Shown: one piece after another, positions 34,754 through 64,000 of the stretch
Position numbering within the stretch: position 1 is the first letter of the stretch
How the letters are laid out: every line of letters starts with the position of its first letter
Source of the DNA: Lutibacter sp. A64
GTDB lineage: Bacteria > Bacteroidota > Bacteroidia > Flavobacteriales > Flavobacteriaceae
Direction: 5' to 3'
Length of the DNA stretch: 64,000 nucleotides
Assembly: GCF_022429565.1 (NCBI RefSeq)
Contig: NZ_CP092487.1
Span: 1 to 64,000, forward strand
The notes under the pieces: generated by a model
What the model was told of the DNA's origin: nothing
Databases searched by the model: none
What the model saw: only the letters and a program-made list of their open reading frames with translations
Program-made: the position numbers and the translations under genes

Positions 34754-34773
34754 CAAAACTAAGATAATCATTT

Positions 34774-34848
34774 CGGGGTGTAGCGTAGCCCGGTTATCGC
34801 GCCACGTTTGGGACGTGGAGGCCGCAGGTTCGAATCCTGCCACCCCGA
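34774..34848 (+). tRNA. tRNA-Pro (anticodon TGG)
   Basis: The acceptor stem CGGGGTG pairs with CACCCCG. The anticodon loop is TTTGGGA and the T loop is GTTCGAATC. A 14-base copy of its 3' end lies inverted at 36374-36387. Confidence 0.95.
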
Positions 34849-34894
34849 CAACAATTGATAAATTTAAATGACTTATCTTATTTTTTGAAATAAT

Positions 34895-36261: not shown

Positions 36262-36317
36262 ACACAACAATTAGGAATGATCCTTTATTTGGCATCAAAT
36301 AAAATGTGTAAAAACAA

Positions 36318-36351
36318 AAAACACTGATAATCATAAGATTAACAGTGTTTT
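36318..36351. terminator. Hairpin AAAACACTG/CAGTGTTTT
   Basis: A 9-bp perfect stem flanked by A and T runs follows the transposase remnant. It may be a terminator or part of the insertion-sequence end. Confidence 0.55.
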
Positions 36352-36373
36352 GGCTTGACCTATTTCTAGGTTC

Positions 36374-36387
36374 GTCGGGGTGGCAGG
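36374..36387 (-). repeat. Inverted 14-base copy of the tRNA-Pro 3' end
   Basis: GTCGGGGTGGCAGG is the exact reverse complement of tRNA-Pro bases 34836-34849 (running one base past the tRNA 3' end). tRNA 3' ends are usual attachment sites, so this may be an attachment-site remnant. Confidence 0.5.
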
Positions 36388-47880: not shown

Positions 47881-50067
47881 TTGAGAAAATTCCCCAATTA
47901 CAAACAAACCGAAGCCAAAGATTGTGGTCCTACGTGTATTAAAATTATTGCCAAATACTATGGTAAAATTATTAATACACAGCAACTACGTACTTTAAGT
48001 GAAACCACAAGAGAAGGCAGTAGTTTATTGGGTTTAAGTGAAGCCGTAGAAAGTATGGGGTTTCGTTCTTTGGGTGTTAAACTTTCTTTTACCAAATTAT
48101 TAGAAGCTCCGTTACCTTGCATTGTACATTGGAATAAAAACCATTATGTAGTTGTTTATAAAATTAAAAAAGGAATAATTTATATTTCAGATCCTGCTCA
48201 TGGTTTAATAACATATACTAAAGATGAATTTATAAAACATTGGATTGGTAATAATGCTGATAAAAATACAGAAGAAGGAATAGCGCTTCTGGTAGAGCCA
48301 ACACCTTTATTTTATCAAGAGGAATTTGATAAAGAAGAGCCTTTTGGATTCAATTTTATATTTAAATACTTATTCAAATATAAAAAATTTATTGTACAGT
48401 TAATTATTGGTTTATTAGCGGGTAGTTTATTACAACTAATTTTTCCTTTTTTAACACAAAGTGTAGTAGATGTTGGTATAAAAAATCAGGATGTTAATTT
48501 TATATATTTAATTCTTTTTGCACAATTATTTTTATATATAGGAAAAGCAAGTCTTGAAATTATTAGAAGTTGGATTTTATTACACCTTAGTACACGTATT
48601 AATATTTCATTAATTTCAGATTTCTTTATAAAATTAATGAAGTTGCCAATTTCATATTTTGATGTTAGAATGACTGGTGATTTATTACAGCGTATCAATG
48701 ATCATAAACGAATAGAACGAATTTTAACAACCTCATCTTTAACAATTTTATTTTCGTTTTTTAATTTAATTATTTTCAGTTTTGTTTTAGGATATTATAG
48801 TTTTCAAATTTTAGGAGTTTTTGTTTTAGGGAGTGTATTTTATATTGCTTGGGTATTATTTTTCTTTGAAAAACGAAAAGAACTAGATTACAAACGTTTC
48901 TCTCAAGTAAGTCAGGAACAAAGTAAAGTTATTGAGCTTATCAACGGAATGCAGGAAATTAAATTACATAATGCTGAACGCCGTATGCGATGGAATTGGG
49001 AGTATGTTCAGGCTCGTTTATTTAAAATTTCTACAAAAAGTTTAGCATTAGAGCAAACCCAAAGTGTGGGTTCAAACTTTATAAATGAACTTAAAAACAT
49101 GTTCATTACAATTTTATCCGCTAAATTAGTTATTGATGGGGAAATTACGTTGGGTATGATGATGGCAATTAGTTACATAGTTGGGCAATTGAATGCTCCA
49201 GTTATCCAATTAATTGGCTTTATGAGAGACGTTCAGGATGCTAAAATATCTTTAGATAGGCTTGGAGAAATTCACAACAAAGAAAATGAGGAAAACGAAG
49301 GTGATGAGAAAGTTACTAATATCCCTTTAAATGCTGCCATAACATTAAAGAATATCTCTTTTAGATATACTGGCGGACTAGAACCTGTATTAAAAGATGT
49401 ATCATTTACGATACCGACCAATAAAACAACAGCTATTGTTGGTGTTAGTGGTAGTGGTAAAACTACTTTAATGAAATTACTACTCCGTTTTTATGAGCTT
49501 GATAAAGGTGAAATTTTAGTTAGTAATTTTAATTTAAAAAATATTTCTCAAAAAGTTTGGAGAGCGCATTGTGGGGTTGTTATGCAAGAAGGCTATATTT
49601 TTAATGATACTATTGCTAAAAACATAGCTGTTGGAGAAGATTATGTAGATACAAAAAAATTAATTCATGCAGTAGATGTAGCAAACATTTCAGATTATAT
49701 AGATGGACTTCCTCTGGGTTATAATACGAAGATTGGAAACGAAGGTTCTGGGTTAAGTACAGGGCAAAAACAGCGATTGTTAATTGCTAGAGCAGTTTAT
49801 AAAAACCCTAAATATCTATTTTTTGATGAAGCAACTTCTGCCTTAGACGCAAATAATGAAATGGTAATTATGGAGAAGTTAAATACATTTTTTACTGATA
49901 AAACAGCTGTGGTTATTGCGCATAGATTAAGTACTGTTAAAAATGCATATCAAATAGTGGTTTTAGATAATGGTAAAATTGTAGAAGTAGGAAATCATGA
50001 AGAATTGATAAAACAAAAAGGTAATTATTACAATCTAGTAAAAAACCAACTAGAATTGGGTGGTTAA
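47881..50067 (+). CDS. C39-peptidase ABC exporter for GG-leader peptides
   Basis: An N-terminal C39 peptidase (about residues 1-145) has the catalytic Cys in AKDCGPTC, His in WNKNHYVVVY and Asp in SDPAHG. Six membrane helices follow (about 165-440). The ATPase has Walker A GVSGSGKTT, signature LSTGQKQRL and Walker B YLFFDEAT. It cleaves leaders after the double glycine and exports the peptides. The start codon is TTG, two bases after the third TlpA gene. Confidence 0.95.
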   Translation: MRKFPNYKQTEAKDCGPTCIKIIAKYYGKIINTQQLRTLSETTREGSSLLGLSEAVESMGFRSLGVKLSFTKLLEAPLPCIVHWNKNHYVVVYKIKKGIIYISDPAHGLITYTKDEFIKHWIGNNADKNTEEGIALLVEPTPLFYQEEFDKEEPFGFNFIFKYLFKYKKFIVQLIIGLLAGSLLQLIFPFLTQSVVDVGIKNQDVNFIYLILFAQLFLYIGKASLEIIRSWILLHLSTRINISLISDFFIKLMKLPISYFDVRMTGDLLQRINDHKRIERILTTSSLTILFSFFNLIIFSFVLGYYSFQILGVFVLGSVFYIAWVLFFFEKRKELDYKRFSQVSQEQSKVIELINGMQEIKLHNAERRMRWNWEYVQARLFKISTKSLALEQTQSVGSNFINELKNMFITILSAKLVIDGEITLGMMMAISYIVGQLNAPVIQLIGFMRDVQDAKISLDRLGEIHNKENEENEGDEKVTNIPLNAAITLKNISFRYTGGLEPVLKDVSFTIPTNKTTAIVGVSGSGKTTLMKLLLRFYELDKGEILVSNFNLKNISQKVWRAHCGVVMQEGYIFNDTIAKNIAVGEDYVDTKKLIHAVDVANISDYIDGLPLGYNTKIGNEGSGLSTGQKQRLLIARAVYKNPKYLFFDEATSALDANNEMVIMEKLNTFFTDKTAVVIAHRLSTVKNAYQIVVLDNGKIVEVGNHEELIKQKGNYYNLVKNQLELGG

Positions 50068-57084: not shown

Positions 57085-58287
57085 ATGATAAATATTATTG
57101 GAGGCACTTATAAAGAAATTAATATTGATGCAAATACATATTATATATTTGGTTCTGGATTAAGGTCCGTTGCTTTTATTCTGGAAAATTCGGAAGAAGA
57201 AATAGTATTCTATACAATTGCGAATAAGGAGGCTGAATGCCATTTGAATAATTATAAAAAAGTTTATAATAAATTTAATTTCGAAATTAAACATTCAAAT
57301 GATTTATTAACATTTAAATATTTTTACTCGTTAGATAATCCAGAGATTTATCCAAATCCAAATTTATTGAAAAATAAACCAACTATTAATGTTTCAAAAG
57401 ATAACTTGATTTGTTTTGGAATGTTAGATGGTAATTTTCAAATTGATGCAAAAAAAGTTGTATATGACCCACAAACTTCTTTAAATCCTATTAGATTTAA
57501 TGTTAACAGTAAAGCAACAGAATTAATTTATATTGTCAATTCAAATGAAGCCAAATCAATTTCAAATTGCTCAGAAATGAATGATATAGTTAACTTTTTC
57601 TTTGATGTAGAAAAGGTTAAAGCTTTAATAATTAAGAATGGACCAAGTGGGGCAAATCTGTATTTAAATAAAGAAGAATTTCATAGGATACCTGCGTATA
57701 AAACTGAGAATGTTTCTAAAATTGGTTCAGGAGATGTCTTTACTACGTCATTCGCGTATTATTGGTTTAAAAAAAATGATTTGAGTCTTAAAGAATGTGC
57801 TAAAATGGCTTCAAAAGCTACATCAATTTTTTGTAATACTGAATCATTAAAAACTTTTACCTCGGAAACTAATCCTTCTAAATTTGATGAGTTTAAATCA
57901 GAAGCTTTAGATAGTAAACAAGTATATCTTGCCGCACCAATTTTTTCACTTTCAGATGTTATACTAATTGATAAAATTAGGAGTTCATTTTTGGGTTTTG
58001 GGCTTAAAGTTTTTTCCCCCTATCATGATGTGGGTTATGGAGATGAGCAAACAATAGCTGAAAAGGATATTAAAGGTCTTGATGATTCTGATATTGTTTT
58101 TTCTGTTTTGGATGGTTTGGATTCAGGAACTTTAGTTGAATTAGGCTATGCTATGTCAAAAGGTAAAAAAATTATTGGTTATCACAGAACGGTAAATATA
58201 GATTCACTTCTTATGTTGAAATTAGCGAATATTAAATATTATAATGATTTAACAACATCTATATATCAGACAGTATGGAGTCTATAA
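57085..58287 (+). CDS. PfkB-type kinase fused to nucleoside 2-deoxyribosyltransferase
   Basis: Residues 1-265 resemble PfkB/ribokinase enzymes, which phosphorylate sugars or nucleosides. The catalytic motif is SKIGSGDVFTTSF near residue 211. The domain is short. Residues 273-400 resemble nucleoside 2-deoxyribosyltransferases: YLAAPIFSLSD, DIVFSVLDGLDSGT and the catalytic glutamate in LVELGYAMSKG. The fusion suggests modification of a nucleoside or its sugar. It overlaps the QueC-like gene by 13 bases. Confidence 0.82.
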   Translation: MINIIGGTYKEINIDANTYYIFGSGLRSVAFILENSEEEIVFYTIANKEAECHLNNYKKVYNKFNFEIKHSNDLLTFKYFYSLDNPEIYPNPNLLKNKPTINVSKDNLICFGMLDGNFQIDAKKVVYDPQTSLNPIRFNVNSKATELIYIVNSNEAKSISNCSEMNDIVNFFFDVEKVKALIIKNGPSGANLYLNKEEFHRIPAYKTENVSKIGSGDVFTTSFAYYWFKKNDLSLKECAKMASKATSIFCNTESLKTFTSETNPSKFDEFKSEALDSKQVYLAAPIFSLSDVILIDKIRSSFLGFGLKVFSPYHDVGYGDEQTIAEKDIKGLDDSDIVFSVLDGLDSGTLVELGYAMSKGKKIIGYHRTVNIDSLLMLKLANIKYYNDLTTSIYQTVWSL

Positions 58288-58874
58288 AAAAAAGTATTCT
58301 ATTATCTGGAGGAATAGACTCAATATGTTTAGCATATCACTTAAAACCAGAAGTAGCATATACAATTGATTATGGTCAAAATTCGGCAGAAAGAGAAATT
58401 TACGTTTCGAAATTGATATGTCATATTTTGAAAATCAGACATGAAGTTATTAGAGTAAATTGTAAATCTTTAGGTTCTGGAAATTTAATAAATGAAAATT
58501 CGATTGAAGAATCTCCCTCTGAAGAGTGGTGGCCATATAGAAATCAGTTACTGATAACGTTATGTTTAATGAAAGCTATAAATGATAAGGTTGGAGAAAT
58601 TCATTTGGCTTCTGTAAAAAGTGACTCATTTCACAAGGACGGAACTGAGGAATTCTACAAAATGTGCAATGATTTGTCTATGTATCAGGAAGGTGGAATA
58701 AAAATAATTTCCAATACAGTAAAATATTTTAGTCATGAGTTAGCAGTACAATATAACGTTCCTAAAGAATTAATTCTATTAGCTCATTCATGTCATATGT
58801 CAAATATTGCCTGTGGTAAATGTTCTGGATGCCTGAAACAAATGAGAGTAAGGCAAGAATTAAATATTGAATAA
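58275..58874 (+). CDS. QueC-like PP-loop synthetase
   Basis: QueC makes 7-cyano-7-deazaguanine in an ATP-dependent reaction. The PP-loop motif LLSGGIDS is at residues 8-15, and the C-terminal zinc cysteines appear in HSCHMSNIACGKCSGC. At 199 residues it is shorter than housekeeping QueC, and it sits with a nucleoside-modifying fusion gene, not with other queuosine genes. Such paralogues occur in defence-related operons. Function here is inferred. Confidence 0.82.
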   Translation: MESIKKSILLSGGIDSICLAYHLKPEVAYTIDYGQNSAEREIYVSKLICHILKIRHEVIRVNCKSLGSGNLINENSIEESPSEEWWPYRNQLLITLCLMKAINDKVGEIHLASVKSDSFHKDGTEEFYKMCNDLSMYQEGGIKIISNTVKYFSHELAVQYNVPKELILLAHSCHMSNIACGKCSGCLKQMRVRQELNIE

Positions 58875-59971: not shown

Positions 59972-60511
59972 ATGGATAGTTTTAATACAATTCGGTTAAA
60001 GAAAAAAACTATAAAAAAATTCAAGGAATATTCTAAAAAATTAAGTTCAAGTTATTCGGAAACATTGGACTTTATGATTGCTTTTTTTGAAGATAATAAT
60101 ATATCACCTTATGATACTTTAAAGATGAGTAATGAAGCTTTTTTAAATCAAATTAATAAACGTATGGATGCCGTAGTTTCGATATTTAGAAATATTGAAG
60201 AGGCACAGCTCAAGCCAACGAAAAAAATATTGGAATCTCTATTTGAAGAAATTGAAGAAAAAAAACCTTTGTTAGTTGAAAAAACAAAGTTTATAGAACC
60301 TGTTTTAACAACCGAAAATGAGGAATTGACCTATTACAGAAATGAATACTATAAAAAGCAAACTGAAGTCAATGACCTTAAGTATAAACTCAAAGAGACT
60401 TTTGGGGAATTTAAACTTGTTAAGAATACTTTTAGTGCTAATCATTATTTATTAAAATTAACTAAAGATGAGCATACGTTATTAAAGGATATATTAGAGA
60501 GTAGTTCATAA
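59972..60511 (+). CDS. BfmA/BtgA-type mobilisation protein
   Basis: The 179-residue protein has an N-terminal DNA-binding region (NTIRLKKKTIKKFKEYSKKL, ribbon-helix-helix like), then a coiled coil and the tail SANHYLLKLTKDEHTLLKDIL typical of this family. BtgA/BfmA proteins help the relaxase of mobilisable Bacteroidota elements bind oriT. No relaxase gene follows, so the module is likely a remnant. Confidence 0.75.
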   Translation: MDSFNTIRLKKKTIKKFKEYSKKLSSSYSETLDFMIAFFEDNNISPYDTLKMSNEAFLNQINKRMDAVVSIFRNIEEAQLKPTKKILESLFEEIEEKKPLLVEKTKFIEPVLTTENEELTYYRNEYYKKQTEVNDLKYKLKETFGEFKLVKNTFSANHYLLKLTKDEHTLLKDILESSS

Positions 60512-60535
60512 TGGGGAATCTTTTCAAACTACCGC

Positions 60536-60620
60536 ACTCGCTTTTGGCGAGTTTGGTTCATTTTTAAACTTTTGGATTCTCATCCGCAAATACCAGCCTC
60601 TAAATCCAAAAGTTTAAAAA
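60536..60620. repeat. Two inverted repeats after the mobilisation gene
   Basis: A hairpin ACTCGC/GCGAGT (60536-60552) is followed by a perfect 18-bp inverted repeat (TTTTTAAACTTTTGGATT at 60561-60578 and its complement at 60603-60620). It may be a terminator or a part of the transfer origin. Confidence 0.5.
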
Positions 60621-60728
60621 CGGATAATTTTGAGTGATTTAGTTGATTGTTTATTTTCAAATAAGGATGCCAAAAATCAATGCTATATCCCTTTATTTAT
60701 AAGGGTAGTTTCTAATAATTTTGTTCTC

Positions 60729-61073
60729 TTACTTATTCTTTCTTCTTTTTCTCTTCCTTTTCTCCTCCTCTTTTACCTCCAAGAATTCAAAAATTTCATT
60801 TTTTTCTTTACTCAAAACTCTTTTAAAGAAATCTATAGTTGATATCTCAAAATAATCACAGAGGTATAGTAGCTTCGTCATATGAAAGTTAGGCTTAGAC
60901 TCCATTCGTCCCATATTAATTGAGACTTCGTATTTCTGAGCAAATTCTATATTCACGTCAGATTGAGACAAACCACTAATTTTTCCTTGATTCATACCTT
61001 TCTCTTTCCTTAATTCTTTGAGAACCATCTCAATGGAAGTAGTATAATATAATATATCTTTTTCATCAATCAT
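60729..61073 (-). CDS. XRE-type helix-turn-helix regulator
   Basis: I set the start at 61073 (MIDEKD) because the longer frame to 61115 overlaps the palindrome at 61102-61131. The helix-turn-helix lies in ELRKEKGMNQGKISGLSQSDVN with a later RMESKPNFHMTKLLYLCDYFEIS, typical of XRE proteins. The C-terminus is a lysine-arginine tail. It is divergent from the sigma-dCas12f operon and is probably its repressor or activator through the palindrome. Confidence 0.75.
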   Translation of the reverse strand: MIDEKDILYYTTSIEMVLKELRKEKGMNQGKISGLSQSDVNIEFAQKYEVSINMGRMESKPNFHMTKLLYLCDYFEISTIDFFKRVLSKEKNEIFEFLEVKEEEKRKRKRRKNK

Positions 61074-61101
61074 ATATCCAAATGACGGTAATAAAATAAG
61101 A

Positions 61102-61131
61102 TTTTTCAACGACATTTGTGTCGTTGAAAAA
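61102..61131. promoter_or_regulatory. Perfect palindrome with 13-bp arms between XRE gene and sigma operon
   Basis: TTTTTCAACGACA and TGTCGTTGAAAAA flank the spacer TTTG. The spacer TTTG also serves as the -33 element of the sigma-operon promoter, so a protein bound here would control it. Confidence 0.7.
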
Positions 61132-61145
61132 AATATCTATATTTG
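61115..61145 (+). promoter_or_regulatory. Promoter of the sigma-dCas12f operon (TTTG-N19-TATATTTG)
   Basis: TTTG (61115-61118) and TATATTTG (61138-61145) fit the Bacteroidota consensus. Transcription would start near 61152 and give a leader of about 300 bases before the sigma start. Confidence 0.7.
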
Positions 61146-61239
61146 ATTAATCTTTCTTTTAGAAGGGTTAATTTTGCGATACTTCTTTAAATAAAATATT
61201 AGAAGCATTCGCTTTGAATCTCGCATTAGAAAACTGGTA

Positions 61240-61366
61240 ATTTTTATGTGTACGAGAGAATAAGCAAGGATGTTCACGACCCGGGGCGTGGACTCTCTTA
61301 TTTGTACACAGGGTATACCAGTACCTCTAATGCAGTAAGTTGAGTATCCACGCCTTTTTGTTTGTA
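61240..61366 (+). ncRNA. Candidate guide-RNA-like or attenuator element in the sigma leader
   Basis: It shares, in the same order, TGTAC, GCAAGG, ATGTTCAC and the 18-base block GCGTGGACTCTCTTATTT (61286-61303) with the region downstream of the dCas12f gene. GGCGTGGA pairs with TCCACGCC (61347-61354), followed by five T, so it may also terminate. Its role (guide RNA or attenuator) is open. Confidence 0.45.
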
Positions 61367-61456
61367 GAAAAAGGGAATTCTTCTCAACCTTTTTCAAAGC
61401 TAGCTTTTCTTTATAAACTGTAAGAACTCGTATCATCAATTTAAACGCGATTTCTT

Positions 61457-62242
61457 ATGTTACAAAGTAATTTTGAATTATTAAAAAAAGGAGACCCTTC
61501 TGCTTTGGTACACATTCATGCCAGGTATAGCAGAAGTATCTTTTGGGTGGGTAAGCAACTAATTAATGATCATTTTGTAATAGAATCCTTGGTTCAAGAT
61601 ACTTTTTTAAAATTATGGGTTCATAAGGACAGAATAGAATCACCTAGGCATATTTTCTATTTCTTAAGATTTGTAATGAAAAGAGAATGTATTTCATATT
61701 ATAGCAAACCTAAAAATAAGTTTTCTAGGAATATACATTCGTTAGAAAATTACGACAATTACCAAGACTATATGGTGGGGTACGACCCCGTAAATGCATC
61801 TGAAAATCTGAAAGACCAGGAATCACAGCAAAAAGCCTTCAACCGAATCAAAAGTGTATTACCCCTGTTGAGTGTTGAAAGAAGGCATTTGATTGAGCTC
61901 TGTTTGAAATACGGTTTTCAATATAAAGCTATTGCCAAGGTTATGGGAAAGGGTATTACCGAAACCAGTAATGAAGTGAGACGAGCTATTGACGATGTTA
62001 AAACGATTATTAATCAAGGAAGAGCGCTTGAAACTGAACAAAAGCCCGCTGTCGAAATTAAGGTTCAAGGTATTATGACTAAGGAACAATCAGAAGTATT
62101 AAAACTCCGATGTGAAAAGAAATATTCCTTTGCTTTGATTGCCCAAACACTTAACATATCCCAAAAGGAAGTCCACAATGAGTTTATGATAGCGTATAAA
62201 CTCATGCAGCAGAAACATGAGCAGCAATTAGAATCCGCTTGA
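61457..62242 (+). CDS. ECF-type sigma factor with two sigma4-like domains
   Basis: The 261-residue protein has a sigma2 domain at about residues 13-83 ([18 protein letters not shown] matches the core-binding helix). A first sigma4-like helix-turn-helix lies at about 132-186 ([18 protein letters not shown]). A second sigma4-like one is at about 206-252 ([17 protein letters not shown], then [19 protein letters not shown]). Normal ECF factors have one sigma4 and about 180 residues. It is separated from the dCas12f gene by one base. The pair implies delivery of RNA polymerase to a site chosen by the dead nuclease. Confidence 0.85.
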
Positions 62243-62243
62243 T

Positions 62244-63341
62244 ATGGAAGAGTCAACACTCAAACTCACACGAAAGGTTCAACTATTAGTCGACCTCCCT
62301 ACCCAAGAAGAAAGAAAGGAGGCATTGGATACCCTTTATAGGTGGCAAAACCGATGTTTTAGAGCTGCTAATCTAATTGTTTCCCATTTGTATGTACAGG
62401 AAAATATCAAGGAATTCTTTTACCTGTCAGAGGGCATAAAATATAAATTGGCTGATGAAAAAAAAGATGAATACGGAATCTTGCAACGCTCACGAATGAA
62501 TACAACTTACCGCGTGGTATCAGATCGTTTTAAAGGTGAAATCCCTACAAACATATTATCTAATCTGAACAACACTTTAATCACTTCTTTTAATAAAAAT
62601 CGACCTGAATACTGGAAAGGCGAACGCTCCCTTAAAAACTTTAGGAGGGATATGGCTTTTCCATTTGGTTTGGAGGGCATCAGCAGATTATCTTATAATG
62701 ACGAGAAAAGAGCTTTTTGCTTCCGTTTATTTCAAATACCCTTTAAGACCTACTTAGGAAAGGATTATACCGACAAAAGAGTACTATTGGAACGCGTACT
62801 AAAAGGAGAAACCAAGCTTTGTACTTCTCACATTAAATTAAAAGATGGTAAAATTTTCTGGCTAGCGGTTTTTGAAATTAAAAAAGAAAAGCAATCCTTA
62901 AGACCAGAAGTGATAGCAGAGGCATCCTTGTCTCTTGAATATCCCATTGTAGTGAAAACCGTTAATACCCGACTTACCATTGGCACTAGGGAAGAGTTTC
63001 TATATAGAAGGTTAGCAATACAAGCAGCCGTTAAAAGGGCACAGATAGGGGCTACTTACTCTAAATCAGGCAAAGGAGTTAAAAGAAAATTAAAAGCAAT
63101 GGACAGGCTTCGTAAAACGGAAAGTAATTATGTATCCCATCGTATTCACCTATACAGCAGAAAGCTAATCGATTTTTGTATAAAACAACAAGCAGGAACA
63201 TTAATTCTATTAAATCAAAAAGACAAGATGGGGATTGTTAAGCAAGAGGAGTTTGTATTAAGAAACTGGAGCTATTATGAGTTAATGACCAAAATAAAAT
63301 ACAAGGCTGAGAAAGCAGGCATTGAAATTATTATAGATTAA
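62244..63341 (+). CDS. Nuclease-dead Cas12f/TnpB-like RNA-guided DNA-binding protein
   Basis: The 365 residues resemble small Cas12f proteins: an N-terminal WED/REC region (about 1-220, ending KLCTSHIKLKDGKIFWLAVF as in Cas12f), then RuvC-like and bridge segments. The first RuvC motif, normally GIDLG with catalytic Asp, reads LSLEYPIVV (residues 228-236), so Asp is lost. The second, normally with Glu, reads LILLNQ. The protein ends at EKAGIEIIID with no zinc finger and no third RuvC motif. It should bind DNA without cutting. The sigma gene precedes it, and a structured RNA region follows. Confidence 0.85.
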   Translation: MEESTLKLTRKVQLLVDLPTQEERKEALDTLYRWQNRCFRAANLIVSHLYVQENIKEFFYLSEGIKYKLADEKKDEYGILQRSRMNTTYRVVSDRFKGEIPTNILSNLNNTLITSFNKNRPEYWKGERSLKNFRRDMAFPFGLEGISRLSYNDEKRAFCFRLFQIPFKTYLGKDYTDKRVLLERVLKGETKLCTSHIKLKDGKIFWLAVFEIKKEKQSLRPEVIAEASLSLEYPIVVKTVNTRLTIGTREEFLYRRLAIQAAVKRAQIGATYSKSGKGVKRKLKAMDRLRKTESNYVSHRIHLYSRKLIDFCIKQQAGTLILLNQKDKMGIVKQEEFVLRNWSYYELMTKIKYKAEKAGIEIIID

Positions 63342-63470
63342 CCGATTCGGTTATGAGGGTGCTTGTACACCCGCAAGGTGAGGTGGATATTCACACTCAC
63401 TAAATGTGAACAGCATATACAACGCGTGGGCTCTCTTATTTTTGTCGCTGAAAAAATACCAAAGTCTTCA
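63342..63470 (+). ncRNA. Candidate guide RNA encoded directly after the dCas12f gene
   Basis: Successive stems are AACCG/CGGTT (63340-63352), GGGTG/CACCC (63357-63372) and GTGAGGTG with CACaCTCAC (63378-63400). The shared 18-base block GCGTGGGCTCTCTTATTT (63424-63441) follows, then a unique sequence starting TTGTCGCTGAAAAAATACC at 63442, which would be the guide. Placement after the gene is as for TnpB/TldR-type guide RNAs. The exact ends are not known. Confidence 0.55.
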
Positions 63471-63483
63471 TTTATGGCAATTC

Positions 63484-63540
63484 CCTTTCAATACACTTCC
63501 GTAACTTTTTGAGAAGCATATTGAAAGGAAATTCTTTTTT
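63484..63540. terminator. Terminator hairpin after the guide-RNA region
   Basis: CCTTTCAATA with CTTC pairs with GAAG and TATTGAAAGG, leaving an internal mismatch, followed by a T run (63534 on). It also serves the convergent recombinase gene. Confidence 0.75.
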
Positions 63541-63561
63541 TAAGGCTAAAAACAATTTGTT

Positions 63562-64000
63562 TTATGCACTCTTACTTTTTTCTTTTTGTTTAAAGCGTTC
63601 TAATAGATTACTTATATCCTCACTAATTTTTGTTTCTACAACCCTAGCATATATTTGAGTTGTGGATAATTTAGTATGTCCTAATAGTTTAGATACTGTT
63701 TCTATGGGTACACCATTAGATAACATAACTGTTGTTGCAAAAGTGTGTCTAGCTACGTGAAATGAAATATTTTTATGAATACCACAATCTTTTATAATTT
63801 CCTTCAAATAAGCATTGGTCTTTTGATTGGAACTTATGGGTAACAAATTTGTTTTAACATCCAGTTCCTCCTTAGCTTTATACTTTTCTAATATAGCCCA
63901 AGCTTTTGGGAGTATGGGTATTTTTACTTGTTCGTCTGTTTTTTCTCGTTTGGTGTAAATCCAATTAGTATTATCTAACCCTTTTACAATATTATTTTCT
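63562..64000 (-). CDS. Tyrosine recombinase, C-terminal part (runs off the window)
   Basis: The minus frame is open to the right edge. The visible part holds the catalytic domain: a segment KGLDNTNWIYTKREKTDEQ, then HVARHTFATTVMLSNG with the His and Arg, LLGHTKLSTTQIYARV with the active-site Tyr. The first catalytic Arg is outside the window. It is a Bacteroidota integrase like the left one. It is convergent with the guide-RNA region. Whether it is complete cannot be seen. Confidence 0.9.
   Translation of the reverse strand, partial: ENNIVKGLDNTNWIYTKREKTDEQVKIPILPKAWAILEKYKAKEELDVKTNLLPISSNQKTNAYLKEIIKDCGIHKNISFHVARHTFATTVMLSNGVPIETVSKLLGHTKLSTTQIYARVVETKISEDISNLLERFKQKEKSKSA

Follow-up and report, generated by a model that had tools for sequence, protein, structure and literature searches.

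Near the right end of the window, by which we mean the whole stretch of 64,000 nucleotides of Lutibacter sp. A64 that was analysed, a gene for a sigmaE-type sigma factor is followed by one for a nuclease-dead Cas12f (dCas12f), a guide-RNA unit and a tyrosine recombinase gene, and is preceded by a structured leader RNA (Table 1). The open reading frames, strands, lengths and one-base gap (base 62243) given for the two central genes in the initial annotation were all correct. Its assignment of the first product to the ECF-type sigma factors also held, as the protein matched TIGR02937 (sigma70-ECF) above that model's cut-off (E = 1.6e-18). Among PDB chains, the sigma protein matched 9n9q_C, "RpoE", over residues 1–261 (E = 5.8e-117). 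The Cas12f-like protein matched "Nuclease-deactivated Cas12f" of 9n9c, 9n9m, 9n9o and 9n9q over its whole length (E = 3.3e-198), and NF040570 (guided_TnpB) at E = 8e-14, under that model's cut-off. Homologues of the two proteins thus occur together in a single solved entry, 9n9q, as separate chains, and homology predicts a physical link between sigma and dCas12f.

Table 1. Positions of the features discussed, in window coordinates
Feature	Position	Strand	Basis or remark
Left copy of 106-bp direct repeat, probable att site	36282–36387		
BfmA/BtgA-family mobilization protein of the segment	59972–60511	+	NF041200, E = 3e-25
Divergent small gene, HTH/XRE-like by eye	60729–61115	−	Many leader copies have such a gene in this place
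Structured leader RNA	61183–61359	+	5' end inferred from TAnnTTTG box at 61169–61176
Terminator-like hairpin: GGGCGTGG ... CCACGCC, then TTTTT	61284–61359	+	Folding energy, covariation
Predicted guide target: 5'-G (TAM position) and 18-nt protospacer, one mismatch	61285–61303	+	
SigmaE-type (ECF-like) sigma factor, 261 aa	61457–62242	+	Region 2 and region-4-like matches, best at residues 207–242
Nuclease-dead Cas12f, 365 aa	62244–63341	+	Profile and PDB matches, lost RuvC residues
Guide-RNA scaffold, ends CATATACAAC	63353–63423	+	Model R1, alignment of relatives' 3' regions
Guide GCGTGGGCTCTCTTATTT	63424–63441 (3' end approximate)	+	Sequence comparison with relatives
Tyrosine recombinase of the segment	63562–64000, continues to genome 64806	−	Profile matches

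The dCas12f–sigmaE pair and the segment that carries it

The loss of catalytic residues claimed for the Cas12f-like protein was confirmed by a HMMER alignment to the 508-aa Cas12f nuclease 9nzr, in which the RuvC triad was not intact. At the positions of 9nzr that we take to be catalytic, the RuvC-I Asp was replaced by Ser228 and the RuvC-II Glu by Leu323; the C-terminal part was missing, the protein ending opposite residue 416 of 508. Ser228 was invariant and Leu323 nearly invariant in ten aligned sequences, the window's included. Structure prediction of dCas12f from a ten-sequence alignment was poor (mean pLDDT 37.6). With the RuvC not intact, identity as a CRISPR-Cas12f nuclease was ruled out. 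The Cas12f/Cas14 CRISPR nucleases are sequence relatives (9nzr and 9nzo, E about 3e-39), and the A64 protein is nearer to Cas12f than to the TnpB chains in the PDB; unlike these nucleases, it lacks the catalytic triad, is truncated at the C-terminus, and has a guide unit that consists of one scaffold with its guide.

The closest known systems are the dCas12f–sigmaE systems represented by the four PDB entries above, which share with the A64 locus homologous proteins of equal lengths (365 and 261 aa), the RuvC loss, a guide RNA and, as a trait of the family, a 5'-G next to the target. Their proteins differ in sequence from the A64 pair. RNA-guided transcription by dCas12f–sigmaE was reportedly described in preprints of 2025, and because such systems have already been described experimentally, the pair itself is not a discovery; by homology, it is a new member of the dCas12f–sigmaE family and not a new system. 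The proposal in the initial annotation of an RNA-guided transcription system was supported by the homologues in one structure, the conserved scaffold and guide, and the candidate targets; its further idea, that the guide takes the place of promoter motifs, is a hypothesis. What the A64 locus adds to the known systems is an assigned guide with candidate genomic targets, and a predicted target within a conserved, switch-like leader.

We sampled 397 genomes of the family; a dCas12f match at E ≤ 1e-20 was present in 19, was full-length in 17 and came in two or three copies in some. The window's dCas12f was 88–93% identical to those of six relatives. Named relatives include Lutibacter, Wocania, Maribacter, Flavivirga, Sinomicrobium, Psychroflexus and Gillisia, which suggests the Flavobacteriales. 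A full sigma ORF ended 1–25 bases before dcas12f at 27 of the 29 loci examined; the exceptions were L002, where a contig end cuts the locus, and L035, where the script found no sigma ORF. One dCas12f (G266) was broken by two in-frame stops, and partial matches occurred in G144, G162 and G378, that of G378 near a contig end. No dCas12f relative was present among 148 pattern stretches in viral contigs. Three plasmid records matched, all below 30% identity and none with 80% coverage; their annotations were TnpB or transposase.

A 106-bp direct repeat with four mismatches bounds a 28.7-kb segment (genome 36282–65044) that contains the unit; its right copy (genome 64939–65044) overlaps a tRNA-Pro gene. 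Judged from the repeats, the recombinase and the mobilization protein, the segment is a probable mobile element. The sigma–dCas12f–guide unit adjoins the tyrosine recombinase gene, and at this position loci L002–L006 can be aligned with the window. The segment also carries a C39-peptidase ABC transporter (47881–50067), several thioredoxin-like proteins, a VKOR protein and a histidine kinase/response regulator pair. At 57085–58874, a PfkB/nucleoside deoxyribosyltransferase fusion stands beside a QueC-like protein, possibly a nucleotide-modification or defence pair. A further copy of the 78-nt tRNA-Pro sequence (34772–34849, +) precedes the left repeat by about 1.4 kb.

The guide RNA and its genomic matches

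Relatives carry an element of about 70 nt directly 3' of dcas12f that ends in the same sequence as the A64 scaffold. The sequence after it was alike for about 14–19 nt in close relatives and then diverged; in other relatives it was quite different. A covariance model of the scaffold (R1), built from 27 sequences, many of them out of the same genomes, matched 22 of the 397 genomes, comprising all 19 with dCas12f and three of the 378 others (G021, G364 and G376). The folding energy of the scaffold alone was no better than that of shuffles (z = −0.95). At the sequence level, a putative conserved guide RNA made up of scaffold and guide is present. Tandem scaffold–guide units follow dcas12f in two other loci, four in L027 (2616–3136) and three in L024 (2608–3003), and possibly represent natural multiplexing.

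Searching the whole 4.03-Mb genome with the 18-nt guide at up to three mismatches gave three sites, namely the guide itself, 61286 and 463398, the latter two with one mismatch each; the reversed control gave none. A G directly precedes both target sites, and targets in the dCas12f–sigmaE family adjoin such a 5'-G (TAM). The first site is upstream of the sigma gene. The second, at about 463 kb and outside the 28.7-kb segment, is upstream of an operon encoding SusC (1006 aa), SusD (476 aa) and an S9 peptidase of the prolyl-oligopeptidase family (946 aa). Both fall within copies of one leader of about 175 nt, the upstream regions being alike over about 200 bp, with the protospacer on the strand of the downstream genes. 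An Eco57I-type methyltransferase gene (L039:1311–3726), preceded by that of a small protein that is HNH-like by eye, lies upstream of the targeted SusCD cassette.

The predicted target is inside the leader and downstream of the inferred promoter box, and dCas12f bound there would form a roadblock. The complex might therefore mainly repress, with dCas12f blocking polymerase from the leader's own promoter and the sigma factor having another role. TldR acts in such a way, repressing its target promoter with no known sigma partner. In TldR, as proposed for the A64 protein, a dead relative of an RNA-guided nuclease serves as an RNA-guided transcription factor, and the TldR repressors are dead relatives of TnpB (PMC13418256). 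The A64 dCas12f, however, has a sigma partner: the sigma gene is directly upstream of dcas12f at 27 of 29 loci and the homologues are chains of one structure. Protospacer and downstream genes are, moreover, on one strand, as activation requires. We regard a mainly repressive role as unlikely.

When a 16-nt pattern was scanned with two mismatches allowed, the 19 dCas12f genomes gave 41 sites (12 guides beside a scaffold, 27 leaders and two elsewhere), against seven for the reversed control. A leader outside the dCas12f operon itself was present in 14 of these 19 genomes and in 48 of the 378 others (Fisher p = 8e-9, uncorrected for genome relatedness). Over the 16 nt, the guide fitted a leader elsewhere better than that of its own operon in four genomes (mismatches for own operon vs best elsewhere: 1 vs 0 in G000 and G094, 3 vs 1 in G254 and G370), equally well in G125 (1 vs 1) and less well in G322 (0 vs 1). 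Autoregulation as the main function was downgraded on these grounds, and autoactivation is the weaker half of the explanation.

We compared 13 guides with 78 leaders. Fit to the leaders of their own genome was poor for both G309 guides (best 8/16), the G031 guide (10/16), three of four tandem G144 guides (9–10/16) and a fifth G144 guide (9/16). The second guides of G257 and G380 each matched a leader of their own genome at 14/16. One divergent G144 guide, starting GCGTGACAT, found its best 12-nt match (10/12) in one of the leaders of its genome; when 16 nt were compared, the leader of its own operon came first (12/16, a tie) and the 12-nt winner third. None of the other non-standard guides, namely those of G329, G100 and G301, the first of G257 and G380 and the third of G094, reached three mismatches in a comparison confined to their own loci, in which the script did not catch L025 of G301. 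The guide–target match spans only about 16–18 nt. Because the G309, other G144 and G031 guides fit no leader of their own well, predicted guide–leader pairing is clear in the case of the main guide type and unproven in that of other guides. The genome with the broken dCas12f, G266, retains a leader-matching guide beside it, and G063 retains the guide, although no leader was hit at the operon of its own.

These several ill-fitting guides, together with the broken and partial dCas12f copies, are what would be expected if the unit were a relic whose guide resembles the leader by descent only and has no working targets. Both reading frames of the window are intact, however; its dCas12f is closely similar to those of the six relatives, and the genome-wide scan with the guide gave no site other than its own and the two leaders. 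A relic is thus very unlikely.

A conserved leader RNA with two folds

A covariance model of the leader's hairpin part (R2) was built from 19 leaders of dCas12f operons and the SusC copy of the A64 genome. At E ≤ 0.001, it found 113 leader copies in 66 of the 397 family genomes, 48 of which had no dCas12f. Conservation of the leader is thus independent of the dCas12f system, and its existence only as a dCas12f target was ruled out. In an order-wide sample, R2 at E ≤ 1e-6 matched 31 of 196 genomes, 19 of them from a second family, where a genome has up to eight copies. That leader-only genomes hide another guide of the same sequence received no support: the scan, whose figures cover 35 of the 48 leader genomes without dCas12f, gave 62 sites, with 52 in leaders and 10 elsewhere, and 11 in the reversed control.

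We also surveyed what lies downstream of 71 copies (leader loci were numbered L041–L070 and L101–L148). Seventy were scored, as L137 escaped the script's pattern; a SusC homologue followed within about 1.6 kb in 39, a sigma homologue in 14 and something else in 17. Ten of the 14 sigma-preceding leaders belonged to dCas12f operons (L118 counted). Behind the sigma genes of L130 and L134, the next ORF looks by eye like a FecR-type anti-sigma factor. At 24 of 30 loci, the two largest upstream ORFs included a small divergent gene, HTH-like by eye, that ended 58–204 bases from the leader; its counterpart in the window had no Pfam hit and a best NCBIfam E of 0.041. In two genomes of one genus (G019 and G248), the leader is followed by proteins of about 110 aa that are alike by eye (L045, L061, L102, L105–L107, L111, L112, L120, L122, L125 and L127), with a short sigma ORF behind the protein in L107. 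A second leader type is present upstream of sigma in L024, L025 and L032, with the hairpin arms GCCTTCCC/GGGAAGGC. All or part of AAAGCCTTCCC is common to this second type and the L024 guides; the L025 and L032 guides do not show it.

The leader RNA can adopt either of two folds that exclude one another, and compensatory changes support both. In the terminator form, GGGCGTGG and CTTATT pair with 3' strands that end in the consensus CCACGCC before the T-run; in the window, the 5' arm occupies 61284–61303, the 3' arm about 61334–61354 and the T-run 61355–61359. The helices of the other form are TCTCG/CGAGA, ACTGGTA/TACCAGT, GATAAG/CTTATC and GCTCACG/CGTGGGC. In the A5 alignment of 70 copies, on which the helices were also chosen and in which kinship can raise values above those of shuffles, 97.9% of cells were paired in the terminator form, with double changes at 10 of 20 pairs and none of 500 shuffles as high by any of five measures; for the other form, the values were 98.5%, 10 of 25 pairs, and none of 500 shuffles by four measures and one of 500 by the fifth. 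Slid controls of both forms were 27–58% paired. In addition, two flanking stretches were hypervariable, yet complementarity was kept inside each copy: the longest match averaged 6.96 against 3.45, and 6.84 against 4.46, when partners were permuted, and none of 2000 permutations was as high. The predicted RNA can take an anti-terminator-like form or a terminator-like hairpin.

Positions 61284–61370 folded well below shuffles (z = −4.4, 0/200), and the longer stretch 61255–61385 gave z = −2.1 (5/200). A pattern-based terminator scanner with a loop limit of 8 did not call the long hairpin; it called a single site elsewhere, compared with 1.5 in shuffles.

In sequence, the guide corresponds to the strand that both folds use, which is the 5' arm of the terminator-like hairpin. 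Its complement in the leader RNA is hence the 3' arm, and by pairing there the guide RNA could act as an anti-terminator or a sponge, with no DNA target needed. Any guide against that DNA site would show equal complementarity, however, and a dead Cas12f beside a sigma factor points to DNA as the partner. We consider action on the leader RNA highly improbable.

Rfam had three matches in window positions 60500–63999, the best at E = 0.56 and all far below gathering thresholds, and no match at E ≤ 0.05 in six leader loci, for example to the Flavo-1 and FopS models. Among the literature matches listed, with subscription papers and most preprints outside the scope of the search, there was nothing on the leader or on dCas12f–sigma pairs. 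In Flavobacterium psychrophilum, 64 structured 5' regions and Flavo-1 hits have been described (PMC9723704). FopS of Bacteroides comprises paralogous, multicopy, structured sRNAs tied to SusC regulation, with a single-stranded 5' part and a terminator, which act on translation of SusC mRNA (PMC11697453). The A64 leader resembles FopS as a multicopy structured RNA linked to SusC, and differs from it in its two alternative folds and its location 5' of the operon. With newness judged against Rfam, the leader would form a new class of regulatory RNA with two states, spread over at least two of the order's families.

A proposed route past the terminator

In the dCas12f–sigmaE family, dCas12f, guide, sigma factor and polymerase form a complex whose transcription start is set by the distance from the R-loop, about 40–50 bp downstream of the TAM. 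From the genes, the lost catalytic residues, the scaffold and guide, the target sites and the leader folds, all read in the DNA, we infer expression, binding and activation, with a start near 61331 between the terminator arms. The dCas12f protein would bind the guide RNA encoded directly downstream of dcas12f and, so loaded, pair with DNA that has a 5'-G beside the protospacer; sigmaE would bring RNA polymerase, which would initiate at a fixed distance downstream. The targets would be the leader before the SusC–SusD–S9 peptidase operon and the leader before the sigma–dCas12f operon. A start near 61331 would have the 5' arm behind it and the 3' arm, from about 61334, directly ahead. A transcript begun between the arms could not form the terminator and would escape termination, and SusCD uptake would then be switched on regardless of the leader's own signal. 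Expression of the unit's own operon would perhaps be reinforced by feedback.

We think it probable that the dCas12f–sigmaE unit activates the leader-bearing SusCD operon, and perhaps its own, by starting transcription past the 5' arm of the terminator. The fuller reading, to which we would give slightly less than an even chance, is that an RNA-guided sigma factor of a mobile element overrides a conserved attenuator from inside, turning on SusCD and its own operon, and that the leader is a new two-state RNA class of at least two families.

The kind of system is already known; what is new is the assigned guide, the candidate targets and the predicted conserved leader absent from Rfam. A natural RNA-guided activator thereby gains a specific guide, two candidate targets and a physiological output, namely SusCD–peptidase uptake. 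If the start indeed lies between the terminator arms, an RNA switch is bypassed by the choice of start site. If this is true, a single guide would turn on leader-bearing SusCD operons by being directed at a strand which the switch is unable to alter. The leader, found in 66 of 397 genomes of the family and in a second family, would be a new class of regulatory RNA for nutrient uptake.
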